DNA of 36,988 bases from a bacterium (GTDB lineage Bacteria > Patescibacteriota > Gracilibacteria > Absconditabacterales > Absconditicoccaceae). Location of the stretch: the NCBI GenBank assembly GCA_023245855.1, contig JAHFJL010000002.1, positions 1 to 36,988 on the forward strand, read 5' to 3'. Position numbers and translations under genes: made by a program. Every line of letters starts with the position of its first letter. Position 1 is the stretch's first letter. Under the pieces are notes generated by a model, which did no database searches, had not been told where the DNA came from, and saw nothing but the letters and a program-made list of their open reading frames with translations. Shown here in pieces: positions 2,083 to 35,558 of this stretch.

Positions 2083-2118
2083 TGAATGATGAATAATGAA
2101 TGATGAATAATGATGGAA
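2083..2118 (+). repeat. Short direct repeat ATGAATGATGAATA
   Basis: Two and a half tandem copies of a 14-bp unit (ATGAATGATGAATA) follow the stop of the preceding gene directly. No function is visible. Confidence 0.6.
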
Positions 2119-2128
2119 CTTTTTTATA

Positions 2129-2154
2129 AGGCGAATGCTATTCGCCCCTACAAA
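2129..2154. repeat. Hairpin with CCCCTACAAA tail
   Basis: GGCGAAT-gct-ATTCGCC forms a 7-bp stem followed by CCTACAAAAC. The same layout (a stem ending in CC, then CTACAAA) recurs at 9965-9998 and 20311-20340, with different stem sequences that remain self-complementary. Confidence 0.6.
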
Positions 2155-2159
2155 ACAAC

Positions 2160-2825
2160 ATGAAACTTCTTCAAAATAATATATTTCAGCCTGTTTCTGT
2201 CTCTTCTGGTCAGCGTTTGGAGCTTGTGGATATTTTTTCTGGTCCTGGCAAAAAGAGCATCGAACTTGATGCTCATAGCTCGTTGACCTATCTCGTTATA
2301 GGCTCAGATGCTGATATCCATATCGATCTTGTGACTAGATGATCGGCATGCTCTTGTACTCTTTTTGCGTTGTTTTTTTCTGATGCGAAACGTCCGCTAA
2401 CAGGATCGCTTAAAGTTTCGCTTAATCATTCCCATACTTCAGCCAATGTAGAACTCATCTCTTTTCTCTACGATGGAGCGCAGATCCATATTGATTGATC
2501 TATCGATATTTGAAAAAATATTGATCAGGTGCATGCGCGTCTGCTCGAGCAGAATGTGGTCTTGGGTCAGAATATCTCTCTTAAAACGTTGCCTCAGCTC
2601 AATGTTGCTTCAGCTCAGGTTCGTGCTTCGCATGGTGCTAATCTCGATAGGCTCGATGAACAGAAACTTTTTTATATGATGAGCAGGGGATTGACTCAGC
2701 AACAATCCCAGCAATTGCTTGTGGATGGATATATCAATCTCGCATTGGCTTCTTTGAGTGAATTTTCTGAAGATGAAGTTGCTGATATCCGTGAAAAGTT
2801 AAATATGCTGCAAAATAAAATTTAA
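2160..2825 (+). CDS. Minimal SufB/SufD-core Fe-S assembly protein
   Basis: This 221-aa protein contains the SufB/D beta-helix core. The C-terminal part reads QVRASHGANLDRLDEQKLFYMMSRGL and then a helix of the type SQQLLVDGYI. This is the hallmark end of SufB/SufD (SHGATVG..DEEQLFYL.SRGL..EEA). Upstream are short strands and the segment SLNHSHTSANVEL. Canonical SufB/SufD are about 400-480 residues, so only the core and C-terminal helices remain. UGA codes Gly at 2340, 2511 and 2523. In the Suf pathway the core family scaffolds nascent clusters with the SufC ATPase, but no sufC, sufB partner or sufS is in the window. Function as a true scaffold is therefore inferred. Overlapping frames here are shadows. 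Confidence 0.8.
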
Positions 2826-13022: not shown

Positions 13023-14159
13023 ATGTTAGGTTTTTTGAGATCATTGTTCGGTTCACGCATACATCCGATGAATACTATCCGGCTTCGTAAAAAGGTTTTG
13101 CTTCAAAACTTTGATTATCTCCAAGCTATCCAGCCTAAAGCTTCAATTTTTCCTGTACTCAAATCCAACGCCTATGGACATGGACTCAAACAGATAGTCA
13201 AGATGCTTTCGAGAGCTGATGTTCCCTATATAGCGGTAGATAGTTACCCTGAATATGTCGTTGTCAAAAATAATTGCTCTCTTCCGATTCTGATCCTTTG
13301 AGAGACGTTGCTCGAAAATTATAGGAAATTTGATCATAAAAAAACAACGTTTTGTGTCTATAATACCTGAACTATCAGACATCTTGGAAGATTAGGGAAA
13401 CCGACAAAAATCCATCTGTTTTTGAATACCGGGATGAATAGGGAAGGCATTCAGGAGGATGAATTATCAGGATTTATTAAAGAGCTTCAAAGCCATCCCA
13501 ACTTGATTGTCGAATGAATATTGTCACATTTTTGGGAAGCTGATGCACCTTCGGACTATTCTATGACTGATCAGATCCAACGCTTCAAACGTATGTATTA
13601 CAAAATCATAGATGCGTGATTTACCCCTCTCTGGAGGCATATCGGCAATAGTGCGGCTATGTTCAAGATCACCGATGAATTCTTTAACGCTTATAGGCCA
13701 GGTATCGCTTTGTATGGGTATAATCCGCTCCATACCGAGGATCCTTTGTATAAAAAAGGGAACAATCTTGCTCCGATATTGTCTGTCACTTCGAGAGTCA
13801 TGAGTCTGCAGACCATATGGCCAGGGGAGTGAGTGAGTTATCACCATGACTACAAACCGCATGATAAAGAGCTTGTCGCGACTGTTCCCTTCGGCTATGC
13901 TGAGTGATTGTTTAGGAGTGCTTCAGGCAAGATATTCATCAAACATCGCAAAGCGTTTCTTCGCCAGGTCGGCATTATCTGTATGAATTTATCGTCTTAT
14001 CTGGTCGATAGCGCTGTGCATATCGGTGATGAGGTAGAAATCATTTCAGAAAATCCTCGCGCTAAGAATTCTATGGCTAACCTTGCAGAGCAGAGTTGAA
14101 CCATTGTTTACGAAACTTTGGTCAAGCTTGATAGAGGAATCAGGAGAGAGATTGTATAG
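13023..14159 (+). CDS. alr: Alanine racemase (PLP-dependent)
   Basis: The 378-aa protein converts L-Ala to D-Ala for peptidoglycan. The PLP-lysine motif is VLKSNAYGHG (Lys47). Further family motifs are FLNTGMNREGI, LSHFWEAD, RPGIALYG and VPFGYAEG, the last normally PxGYADG with the catalytic Tyr. The segment IICMNLSSYLVD stands where most have VCMDQxMVD, so the usual Asp after Met is Asn. Several UGA glycines occur, including the Gly of VPFGYAEG. Stop is TAG at 14157. ATG 13023 adds about 15 residues before the normal family start, so ATG 13068 (MNTIRLRKK) is an alternative start. The gene precedes the ZIP transporter by 114 bp. Confidence 0.92.
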
Positions 14160-14232
14160 GTACAAGGGACAAGGGACAAGAGGAAAGGAGAAAGGTACAA
14201 GGAGAAAGGTACAAGGGGAAAGGGGAAAGGAA
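14160..14232 (+). repeat. Purine-rich simple repeat (GGTACAAGGGGAAA-like)
   Basis: Short imperfect units such as ACAAGGG, GGAAAGG and GGTACAAGG follow the alr stop. Similar tracts occur at 35290-35350 and, as the complement, at 12973-13015. Confidence 0.6.
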
Positions 14233-19066: not shown

Positions 19067-19141
19067 ACTACACTGCTAATATAACTAAAAAAAATAATGA
19101 AAAATTAATAATTAATAATGTTGGTATTTCATATATATCTT

Positions 19142-19516
19142 TTATCTAAGGATTTTGTTCATGATTTTACCAAGAAATCCTGCGATTCATTTTTCGTTTT
19201 TGCTGTTTTTGATAGTGGTATCTATGTTGGTGTACGATTGTCTGATCCCTTTTTCTGCTTCTGGACGGTGGAGATTACTGATAGCTGTATCGATATCAGG
19301 AGTAAGTGAAGAGGGATTTTTTACTGTCTCTTTTTTTGCTTCTTTTGACTTGGGCTGATTAATATTTTTGAGCATATCTTCAGCTTGTTGATGTTCTTTT
19401 TCAGTCTCTTGTTTGCCTATCTCTTTCCCTTTGAGCTTGTCTGCGTACGTATTCACTTTCCCTTCAGCTGATCAAGTCCTGACTTCCAGGTTTTTATTCT
19501 CTATTTTTTCTGTCAT
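19142..19516 (-). CDS. Small charged protein between hrcA and the Nudix gene
   Basis: This 124-aa protein starts MTEKIENKNLEVRTGSAEGK and ends in TAA after GIAGFLGKIMNKILR. The body is strongly hydrophilic (KGKEIGKQETEKEHQQAEDM, KSKEAKKETVKN) with little predicted core. The last 15 residues form an amphipathic, Gly-containing helix that could attach to a membrane or partner. It occupies the place often held by grpE after hrcA but shows no GrpE motif. The start is 9 bp after the hrcA stop, so it is co-transcribed with hrcA. Two UGA glycines occur. Function unknown. Confidence 0.65.
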
Positions 19517-25169: not shown

Positions 25170-25324
25170 AGTTGATTGGATTAAACGATAAACGATGTTC
25201 GGTAAAGTATTACCTAATCACGATACGTTTTGTTAATTTATCGTTTTATAGGTTCGAAGCAAGGAAAATATTTTACTTACAATTTCTTGAAATGTGTCAG
25301 GAAAACGATATTACTCAATGGTTT

Positions 25325-25469
25325 TATCACATAGGAATTTTTGAAATTCCTATTCAGCTACGCTGGATAAAAACGACGTTAAACTTCTTGTGTATCGATT
25401 TTCGATATAACTCTTACATCCCCGAAAAGTCGGGGTGGTCGAGAAAGAAGTTTCGGCGTCTTATTTTAT
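25325..25469. repeat. Interspersed structured repeat, family A, copy A4
   Basis: H1 hairpin, CAGC-tac-GCTG, GACG/CGTC and AAACTTCT/AGAAGTTT enclosing TATCGA-ttt-TCGATA (25393-25407) and CCCCGA-aaag-TCGGGG (25420-25435), as in A2 but without the CCTTAG hairpin. The rest of the 25170-25486 gap holds only AT-rich sequence. Confidence 0.85.
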
Positions 25470-25954: not shown

Positions 25955-27151
25955 TTAACTTATAAAGGGAATTTTAACATTTCGGAAGTGGATGAGGTCT
26001 TTTAATAAAATGTAGACTCCAAGTGCCATCAATGCTACAAAGAATATGAGATTGATATATCATTCTACATTAAAATATTTTTCTGGTTTGAGTTTTCCTA
26101 ATCCTTGGATCAATACTCCTAATAACCTTCCTCCATCAAGCGCTGGAATAGGTATGACGTTGAATATTGCTAGTGCAAGTGAGATCATGCCTGCGAATCC
26201 GAGGTAGAGTTTCCGTCATCCAATGCTCAATAAGCTTTCACCGAATTTGATTGCTCCCGCTGGTCCTGTAAGTTTACCCAGTGAAGTTTTGATCCTTAAT
26301 CCGTTAAAAGATAAGAGATCTTTTCATAGTGTGCCAAGTGCTCAGAATGTAAGTGATGTTTCTGCTCTTATTTCTTTGAGTGCTATTCGCATTGATGTGA
26401 AGAATGGAAACTTGATAGGTTTGAGATCAATGTTTCCTGCAAAAAATGTTAATCCTAGGATGCAATTGTCTACCGGACATTCCGTTTTAGCGATAATATT
26501 TTTTCCGCCTCTTGTAAAAAGTACAGAGATATTCTGGTTGATATATTTTTTGAGTACGCTTCAGATATTCCAGACATCAACAGGATCACTGTTGATTGAA
26601 AGAATGGTATCTCCTGATAATAATCCTATCTGTTGTCCAAGAAGATCTGATGATACGGTTTCGATCTTTGCTGGAGAGGATACTAAATCTCAGCTTATGA
26701 ATCCTTGTTTTCGAAGGAAGTTTACCGTTGGCATCAGATAACTATTCTGTTTGCTCAAAAATGCATTTTCTGGGAGTATTGATATCGGTTTGGTTCCCAT
26801 GGTAAAGAGGGCTGTGAATATCACTCGTGCGAGGGCGAGATTCATCCCTACTCAGGCGATCAGAATCCATATTTTTCTTCTGAGTTTCGCTTTGATGAAA
26901 CTATCTTTTGCATTGAAGTCCTGTTCGTCTTTTGGATCTTCACCTTTGAGTCTGACAAATCCTCCTAGGGGCAAAAGATTGAGCGTATATTCTGTACCAT
27001 CTTTTCCTGTTCGAAGTCTGCATACCTTTGGCGGGATGCCGATACCGAATTCTAATACTTTCACTCCATTCTTTTTTGCTACCATAAAATGACCTAATTC
27101 ATGGATCAATACCAAACACATAAACATAAATATTCCTAATACAACTCACAT
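25955..27151 (-). CDS. rseP: Site-2 intramembrane zinc metalloprotease (RseP/RasP type)
   Basis: The 398-aa M50 protease carries the HELGH motif at residues 17-21 in the first TM helix (CLVLIHELGHFMVAKKNG) and the second metal-binding motif NVIPIPALDGGRL near 339, in a C-terminal TM helix. Between them lie EYTLNLLPLGGFVRLKGEDP, another TM region and a PDZ-like domain (DTILSINSDPVDVWN). It cleaves membrane-bound anti-sigma factors or signal-peptide remnants in other bacteria; its substrate here is unknown. The start is ATG-UGA (Met-Gly), which adds the beginning of TM1 compared with the internal ATG 27127. UGA is used often. The last two helices end in DLIHFRNVKIPFIS. Confidence 0.93.
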
Positions 27152-27160
27152 CTTTATATT

Positions 27161-27400
27161 AACTAACAACTAAAAACTAATAACTAATAACTAAAAACTA
27201 ATAACTAAAAACTAATAACTAAAAACTAATAACTAAAAACTAATAACTAATAACTAATAATTAATAACTAACAACTAACAACTAATAACTAACAACTAAC
27301 AACTAACAACTAATAACTAATAACTAATAACTAATAACTAAAAACTAATAACTAAAAACTAATAACTAATAACTAATAACTAACAACTAACAACTAACAA
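27161..27400. repeat. Heptamer tandem array AACTAAN (~34 units)
   Basis: About 240 bp of continuous 7-bp units AACTAA(T/A/C) (for example AACTAATAACTAAAA), immediately upstream of the rseP start. The last position is variable, and the units are grouped as A/T and then C variants. It lacks spacers, so it is not CRISPR. In one frame it is rich in stop codons. Confidence 0.9.
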
Positions 27401-27500
27401 CGATGGAAATTATAATTATTTAATATTCTTTTTTTGTTGATTAGTGTTTACGAAATTGTATAAACAATTCAACTGTAAATTCGCTTAAATCCCTAGATAA

Positions 27501-27572
27501 TTTATATTATTTATATTATTTATATTATTTATATTATTTATATTATTTATATTATTTATATTATTTATATTA
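27501..27572. repeat. 9-bp tandem array TTTATATTA, eight copies
   Basis: Eight perfect TTTATATTA units sit about 30 bp before the tatD start, in the divergent rseP-tatD intergenic region. Between the heptamer array and this one is ordinary AT-rich DNA. Confidence 0.9.
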
Positions 27573-27600
27573 TTATATCCTTTAATCCATTATCGCTTTT

Positions 27601-32993: not shown

Positions 32994-34061
32994 ATGGTAT
33001 ATGATGTGCTAATTATTTGATGAGGTGCTTCAGGACTATTCTGTTCCTTATTTTTGCCGAAGGAGCTCAAAAAATGTATTATAGAAAAGACGGATAAACT
33101 CGGTTCTAAGGTTCTGCTTTCTGGAGGAGAAAGATGTAATCTCACCAATCTTAATCTCAATCAAAATCCTGAACTTTATTATGTCGGTCAATCCCTTAAA
33201 TCTTTGCCGTCCCTTTTTCATCAATTCGGACCTGAAGATATGATCGCTTATTTGCATGAGCATGGTATCGAAACCAAAATCGAAGCAAATGGCAGAGTGC
33301 TGCTCAAGAGCTGAAAAGCTAAAGAAATCGTAGAGTTTCTTGTCAATCAATCAAAAAATAATGATACTGAATTTCTGCTCAATCACGAAGTCATCTCTGT
33401 GACCATCGCTGATACTCATACGTTTGTAATCACTACGTCTGCAGGCGTGTATTCGGCTAAGCAAGTCATCGTAGCGAGCTGAGGGATGACATATCCGCAA
33501 ATAGGTGCGAGCCCGTTCGCATATGAGATTGCTGAACAGCTATGACTTAGCATCTCTTCTCCTCATGGTGCTTTGTGTGGCATAGAAACTAAGGAAGATC
33601 TTTCTATGTTGTCGTGAAATACCGTTCAGACAACCCTTGCTTTGTATGCTAACAATAAAGTGGCCTATGCAACAAAATGATCTTTGTTGTTCACTCATCG
33701 AGGACTCAGTGGTCCGATAATCTTTGATGCTACTCTCTATATAGATCAAAATGTTTCCAAATATTCTCTGCAATGCAATTTCGATCTTGCTGGTACCAGC
33801 AAAAAAGTCATCCAGAAATTCAAGCTCAGTCCTGGAGATACTATCCGTGATTTTCGTATCAAAGCCTTGAGATCTATCCAAGAGGCGAAAGTCTCCGTAT
33901 GATGAATTTTATTGAAAGACCTTGATCAATCATTCCAATCTAAAATCATTCCCTGACTTTATTTTTTGGGAGAGACTCTCGATATTACCTGAAAGACTTG
34001 AGGATTTAATCTTCAATGGGCGTGGACGAGTGCATATGTTTGTGCTAAGAAATTTAACTAA
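32994..34061 (+). CDS. HI0933-like flavoprotein (NAD(P)/FAD-dependent oxidoreductase)
   Basis: The 355-aa protein has an N-terminal dinucleotide-binding fold MVYDVLIIGGGASGLFCSL, in which the first two of three glycines are UGA, followed by EKTDKLGSKVLLSGGERCNLTN, the signature of the HI0933/YhiN (BaiN-like) family. Further motifs are GRVLLKSGKAKEIVEFL, VIVASGGMTYPQIGAS, LLFTHRGLSGPIIF and GLYFLGETLDITGKTGGFNLQWAW (FAD closing motif). The reaction of this family is uncertain. UGA use is very high. It follows folD by 95 bp and ends in TAA just before repeat B4. Confidence 0.92.
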
Positions 34062-34097
34062 CAACTCATAGTTAATATCTAACAACGATTGAATTTT

Positions 34098-34300
34098 TTT
34101 TCCTTCGGAGACATACTTTTGGCATACCCCCAAAAGTACGCAAAAAGGCTTTTTTTTTCGCCATTAAAAGCAATATCATGGAGTATGTATATCATGATTA
34201 TTTACATATCCCTTAGTCCTGCCTTACGGCAAACGGACTTACGGGATGATACGCTCGACCTACTTTTTACGCTGGTGGAATAATGGCTCGAATTCTAATA
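34098..34300. repeat. Interspersed structured repeat, family B, copy B4 (diverged)
   Basis: H1 TACTTTTGG/CCAAAAGTA (34114-34138), GCAAAAAGGC, CGCCATTAAAAGCAATATCATGG, H3 TGCC-ttac-GGCA (34220-34231; other copies TGTC-taac-GACA), AAACGGA, then GGGATGATACGCTCGACC and GGCTCGAATTCTAA. This is the most diverged B copy, and the loss of sequence identity preserves H1 and H3. Confidence 0.8.
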
Positions 34301-35289: not shown

Positions 35290-35352
35290 ATATAAGGTAG
35301 AAGGTGAAAGGTGAAAGGGACATGGGACAAGGTGAAAGTTACAAGTTACAAG
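35290..35352 (+). repeat. Purine-rich simple repeat
   Basis: Units such as AGGTGAAAGG, GGGACAAGG and GTTACAAG, like those after alr, lie in the CorA upstream region. The remaining 35353-35665 sequence is AT-rich and contains the promoter below. I see no gene there. Confidence 0.6.
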
Positions 35353-35558
35353 GGTATAATCTTATATTTTCTAATAGTTCTTTAATTAAGTATATCTAGA
35401 AATAATCTCCTGTCAAATTTTTGAGACTGATTTTTGTTGATTTTGCGTTGTTTGATAACTGTTAGTTTGCAATGAAATATAAAAAACTATGATTGTAAAT
35501 ACAAAAATGGGTGTTTTCTTATTTTACCGCAAAAAATATTTCATCTGATACTATTCTT

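Follow-up and report, generated by a model that had tools for sequence, protein, structure and literature searches.

The heptamer array upstream of rseP in the 36,988-nucleotide window (the whole stretch of DNA analyzed here) is probably a left arm that has outgrown its usual length, in a decayed copy of a small element with inverted heptamer arms; this element is scattered through the genome and nearly confined to this genus and one neighbor. We parsed positions 27161-27398 (+ strand) into 34 in-register ARYKAAN heptamers, 33 AACTAAN and one AATTAAT (the unit at 27259), whose seventh bases run CATTATATATATTTTCCTCCCTTTTATATTTCCC along the array; TRF reported a period of 7, 34.6 copies, and a score of 365 for 27160-27401. 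The array ends in AACGATGGAA (27399-27408, + strand), the core of the dispersed palindromic element, and the same or a similar core ends the sister arms. An AT-rich loop remnant follows (27409-27436, + strand), and the right arm is missing or decayed: no facing heptamer arm was seen to the right of the core in the rseP-tatD gap, and a promoter-like block toward tatD, TTGATT-16-TATAAA (27437-27464, + strand), comes directly after the remnant. A nonamer array of ATTTATATT (27500-27578, + strand; TRF period 9, 8.9 copies) occupies the tatD leader and is not part of the element. The two flanking genes are divergent and match Peptidase_M50 (rseP, P0001, 25955-27151, − strand) and TatD_DNase (tatD, P0002, 27601-28440, + strand). 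Both read through TGA, taken as glycine as in translation table 25, which Gracilibacteria and SR1 use. Most rseP orthologues of the genus align from about the methionine at 27151, which we take as the first base of the ATG start, so that the array begins approximately 9 bp upstream of it.

The array is far beyond chance, because three-unit AACTAAN has 68 matches in the genome against 0 for the pattern reversed, and three rounds of order-2 Markov simulation yielded no exact tandem runs of at least 16 matching bases at periods 4-30. These results agree with the sequence-only reading, which had described about 34 copies upstream of rseP, a second array of nonamers near 27501-27572, and a divergent rseP-tatD setting; the other AACTAAN arrays that it suggested looking for do exist in this genome, mostly as inverted pairs. 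Beyond that reading, the array ends in the core, sister inverted pairs exist, and three further partial or diverged copies of the element lie in the same window, as found by profile: a partial copy with an AATGAAN/AATGATG arm and a core (2070-2133, − strand), a diverged copy (19083-19201, − strand), and a half copy with an AACTAAC-type arm and a AACGATTGAA core (34049-34100, + strand). Other repeats were seen as well. A second dispersed hairpin-like repeat of 71 bp sits beyond the 3' end of rseP (25321-25391) and recurs at L041 1597-1667 with 88% identity, and short GC-rich hairpins with CGCCCCTACAA stand beside two AATAATG-type arrays (window 2114-2160 and L063 7265-7310). AAGGGAC and AGGTGAA heptamer families are also dispersed in this genome (window 14158-14231 and 35308-35353; L049 8819, L050 3116, and L063 2703, the last seemingly with a facing arm), and may be arms belonging to further IVP-type elements.

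The other AACTAAN arrays of the genome consist of heptamers, AACGATGGAA or a close form of it, an AT-rich stretch, and opposite heptamers. Five of the six interior AACTAAN arrays with at least three units face an inverted arm (contigs C9, C26, C36, C43, and C70, in C26 across an IVP gene), and the window has the arm and core only. A first profile built from eight such places, the window included, found many more copies. A profile built without the window still matches 27366-27442 (E 1.8e-9), and it matches 27377-27439 at 8.4e-8 when only the last three units of the array are left unmasked. The element usually contains four ARYKAAN heptamers, the core, an AT-rich loop, the inverted core, and four inverted heptamers; the core lies inside each arm with a consensus, read by eye, of about ARYGNYGGWAT, and heptamer positions 1, 5, and 6 are nearly always A in an alignment of 16 copies. 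We parsed 43 arm pairs from loci of this genome and its congeners, or 39 once nested ones were removed. The arms are 4-5 units long in 75 of 86 cases, compared with 34 units in the window left arm, and the fifth unit is, by reading, usually a degenerate unit beside the core. The core and loop together span 25-42 bp in 27 of the 43 pairs and 53-63 bp in 8; most of these longer ones show an inner stem on reading. The parsed pairs share the features of MITEs, being short, gene-less, and bounded by terminal inverted repeats, and the window copy keeps one arm. In a copy of congener G003 (L374), the right arm is broken by an apparent small hairpin insertion. Pure AACTAAT arrays of approximately 17-18 units stand at two contig starts of this genome in opposite orientation (L041 1-127 and L044 1-120, contigs C6 and C36), and a single long array at which the assembly broke may account for both.

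Adjacent units in the sister elements are of the same type in 76 of 222 cases, above the mean (47.4) and even the maximum (66) of 1000 shuffles. Growth of the arm by slippage or unequal exchange fits the data, because neighboring units of the sister arms are alike beyond the shuffles; unequal exchange, which had been proposed from the patterned seventh base, is thus plausible alongside slippage. Unit by unit, the two arms match in 34 of 149 cases, which 558 of 2000 shuffles reached, so the match is not above chance, and a match in composition is not clear (460 of 5000 shuffles); a concerted change of the arms, suspected at first, was rejected. RNAalifold on the element copies gave no consensus pairs, and a selected RNA hairpin was rejected on this result together with the arm matching. 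A search of Rfam at the gathering score, covering 9 sources with elements, returned one L10 leader (L278) and no match at any element, and a known structured RNA family was accordingly rejected. No target-site duplication was detected in the 39 elements, whose flanks agree no more than shuffled ones at k=3 and k=4. We also rejected a RAYT-driven REP, since RAYT does not track the element: PF01797 was not found in this genome and has three matches in G006, which is element-free.

With 150 candidates scored per genome (79 with stricter filters in one search), so that all counts are lower bounds, the element model R1 matched eight of the nine genus genomes, with none in G006. This genome has at least 66 matches on both strands, in at least about 38 places by count, and the window copy was not among its 150 scored candidates. 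G010, a genome of a neighboring genus, has at least 10 matches, two other genomes of the family have one weak match each, and none was seen among the candidates scored in the remaining 38 of the 49 family genomes; a profile search of 20 stretches of the class (313 kb) gave no match. The 21 copies in the sampled part of this genome lie in tandem (10), convergent (7), and divergent (2) gaps, in an ORF (1), and at a contig edge (1), where the sample offers 117 tandem, 39 convergent, and 45 divergent gaps, and 17 of the 21 are no more than 15 bp from the end of a called ORF.

These positions bear on the possibility that the element is a functional intergenic structure, for example a binding array or a signal for RNA processing or stopping, that selection maintains at some sites and that is not mobile. 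At one gene pair, judged by eye, the element follows directly after the stop codon of the upstream gene, which we take to be YidC-like, in five of eight genus genomes (this one included) despite deep divergence; the variation of the heptamer is restricted at its three A positions, and TAA or TGA lies inside 288 of 300 perfect units, counted by unit types. Against this, the unit types differ and both loop classes are present among congeners at that same site, no arm-to-arm complementarity exists beyond the consensus, and the code used here does not read TGA as a stop. Furthermore, a second site, also judged by eye, holds the element in this genome only of five, with other palindromes or heptamers in three congeners and none in one, and the rseP-tatD gap holds it in two of nine genus genomes. 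We therefore regard a selected, immobile structure as unlikely; the site pattern could arise from re-insertion as well as from long retention. In one and the same gap, before the orthologue of L046 10046, G008 (L364) and G003 (L362) have palindromes of other short units, and the G003 palindrome resembles the flanks of an IVP gene in L412.

The window array consists of tandem 7-bp units between genes and is in that sense an intergenic heptamer SSR, and it could be only that, a product of heptamer slippage in a period-7-prone genome with no element behind it. Among TRF arrays with a period above 3 in a 302 kb sample of this genome, 43 of 77 have a period of 7, 14, 21, or 28; the share is 22 of 54 in the congener sample, 8 of 37 in the family sample, and 14 of 32 in the class sample. 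A bacterial excess of heptamers is also reported in the available text of PMC4692102. Exact five-unit AACTAAN occurs in at least 118 stretches of other species, with titles naming many phyla, and is mostly solitary there: 2 of 133 arrays are faced, within 900 bp, by an arm of two exact units, and in five of the 133 the opposite arm lies on the other side. In viral contigs the reversed control unit is not much rarer than AACTAAN (12 versus 18), and on that ground we rejected AACTAAN as a special unit. However, this explanation is already weakened by the AACTAAN arrays of this genome, which mostly end in a common core and face inverted arms, and by the narrow range of arm lengths; of 99 genomes, 4 (this one included) contain a four-unit AACTAAN array and none contains the backward control, which gave one match in 12 other genomes. 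We consider a plain slippage array distinctly unlikely, and we return to the expanded element arm as the preferred reading.

The promoter-like block next to the window copy is conserved across the orthologous rseP-tatD gaps. Its first 27 bases have at least 20 matches in 12 of 13 gaps, in each of which the matches exceed every one of 200 shuffles, and 18 matches in the thirteenth (G026). The heptamers lie between the block and rseP and the nonamers between the block and tatD, so a change in copy number would alter a leader or an upstream length, not the spacer of this block. No array stands between the block and rseP in G001, G003, and G005, among the orthologous gaps compared. G008 has a complete two-armed element in its rseP-tatD gap, which model R1 also matches, and G007 has an AAAGATG array instead, on the tatD side; the rseP-tatD gene order persists while repeats come and go. 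Among 382 loci, a three-unit ATTTATATT pattern matched L011 alone, and L011 is this very place in the rseP-tatD gap. A promoter consensus scan found 7 sites where 6.3 were expected, i.e., no excess; one match (27387-27416) has its first hexamer within the last array units, the other six fall in the nonamers, and the conserved block is absent from the list because its second hexamer ends in A. Phase variation of rseP or tatD set by array length, as proposed in the sequence-only reading, is very improbable and was dropped as the leading idea, since the array, although close to the rseP start and, should transcription begin near the conserved block, within the rseP leader, lies outside that genus-conserved block and is lacking in most congeners, and since RseP and TatD are housekeeping proteins rather than surface antigens. 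The array most likely has little effect on rseP and tatD, given its place in the leader or upstream region of rseP, with the promoter-like block intact.

Most of the copies found are gene-less, and some enclose a gene of the IVP family. IVP (PF05635), the 23S rRNA intervening-sequence protein, is a four-helix-bundle protein. An ORF of 116 aa enclosed by the arms and core of L043 matches PF05635 (23S_rRNA_IVP) at 6.3e-24; the element profile matches on one side of it, and the other arm is plain by reading. The element profile matches both sides of the IVP gene in 4 of 31 IVP loci (L399, L404, L405, and L406), and in C30 of this genome an IVP gene lies, by reading, between arms nested with a gene-less copy. 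A PF05635 gene between inverted repeats is thus found in L043, L399, L404-L406, and C30 and not in the window copy. PF05635 has 69 matches in nine of nine genus genomes and none in 14 control genomes; G006 has 13 IVP matches but no element match. We examined the flanks of 30 of the 69 matches. Their mean inverted-repeat score is 16.4, compared with 9.6 for 249 other ORFs, and drops to 9.7 when partners are shuffled among loci (n=30); 11 of the 30 exceed the 99th percentile of the 249 control ORFs, and 15 of 30 score above 16 versus 1 of 55 neighbors. At period 7, the threshold is reached by 12 of 30 IVP flanks and by 48 of 249 ORFs of this genome (Fisher p 0.012). The other IVP loci of the genus have arms of other heptamers, in some cases non-heptameric inverted repeats, and in some none visible, and the IVP genes in L396, L407, L410, and L415 have direct instead of inverted flanking repeats.

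Similar flanks were observed beyond the genus. Eleven of 12 genomes with AACTAAN arrays, mostly of other phyla, have PF05635, with 74 matches, a rate that is no test since the genomes were picked for their arrays. We examined 30 of the 74 matches: 24 have inverted flanks above the 99th percentile (a score of 16) of 472 control ORFs, and under another start-codon rule 15 of 30 exceed 16 versus 1 of 45 neighbors. The mean inverted score is 18.3, against 8.6 with shuffled partners (n=30). For period 7, 18 of 30 IVP flanks reach the threshold, compared with 80 of 472 controls, which lie 250 bp away or at other loci (Fisher p about 5e-7), and for period 8 the counts are 6 of 30 versus 9 of 472; other periods give little signal. 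Controls at the same loci show no clear period-7 enrichment (17 of 30 versus 20 of 45 in these genomes; 12 of 30 versus 14 of 55 in the genus), and these neighbors share the arm-bearing gaps. IVP genes in the genus and in several other phyla are often flanked by locus-matched, often heptameric, inverted repeats. The link runs one way, from IVP to inverted arms and not from AACTAAN arrays to IVP: of the 118 AACTAAN loci listed for other species, a single one has any IVP gene, and none has one within 500 bp; the notion that every AACTAAN array is an IVP arm was rejected for other species on these counts and on the scarcity of facing arms.

No target duplication was detected at the copies, no transposase is known for the element, and its arms do not pair unit by unit, so that its movement, and any part of IVP in it, is inferred; the ends of the element are those of the IVP gene-bearing element, and the transposase search covered RAYT. 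The element would spread as a whole, its arms being acted on by IVP or some other host factor. One copy would have inserted near rseP and subsequently lost its right arm, and the left arm would then have grown to 34 units by slippage or unequal exchange.

Comparisons with known systems indicate both likenesses and differences. The intervening sequence (IVS) of the 23S rRNA in Coxiella burnetii carries GACAGAT heptamers, strain-variable in number, before the S23p gene and has 28-bp terminal inverted repeats, according to the available text of PMC4990558, and it resembles the present element in a PF05635-type gene between terminal inverted repeats and in tandem heptamers. In contrast, the copies examined here stand between protein genes and not in 23S rRNA, the window copy between rseP and tatD; most of those found are gene-less, and their arms are degenerate heptamers, usually four and 34 in the window. 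TAACTGA heptamers of Beggiatoaceae, cyanobacteria, and Bacteroidetes, whose origin is left unexplained in the available text of PMC4679880, are likewise intergenic and tandem with a closely similar unit and long arrays in some species; a Beggiatoaceae genome has 169 direct sets, most near start codons, and one inverted. The element differs in its core, facing arm, and linked gene, none of which that text describes for TAACTGA. The IVP flank of the Calothrix locus L437 has the unit AGTTATC, which reads GATAACT on the other strand, i.e., TAACTGA in another register. Like MITEs, REP, RUP, and RPE, as far as covered in PMC10969869, the element is a short, mostly gene-less intergenic inverted repeat with gene-bearing relatives, whereas its related gene is PF05635, and neither a target duplication nor a transposase is known for it. 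The GGGAATC and GGGGA(C/T)T heptamers of Xanthomonas and Nostoc, which are G-rich and studied as quadruplexes, also form intergenic arrays that vary in length and are sometimes inverted where genes converge, but the available text of PMC4692102 describes neither a core nor an IVP link for them. Within the accessible open-licence literature, we found no report linking IVP genes to dispersed intergenic heptamer arms, apart from the heptamers of the Coxiella IVS.

It is possible, and we propose it tentatively, that IVP genes with inverted heptamer arms constitute a widespread class of small mobile elements with their own way of moving, in which IVP or a partner enzyme would recognize heptad arrays. 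Gene-less or one-armed descendants would then be a major source of unexplained intergenic heptamer repeats, including the window array and some TAACTGA repeats.

Intergenic heptamer arrays and the IVP family have each been noted for years without explanation, and here they are tied together by sequence. If the arms are what an IVP-linked movement recognizes, both puzzles become testable at the bench. On the element reading, the 34-copy array is the remnant of an element and not a gene switch, and the element may help to account for some of the seven-letter intergenic repeats of bacteria.
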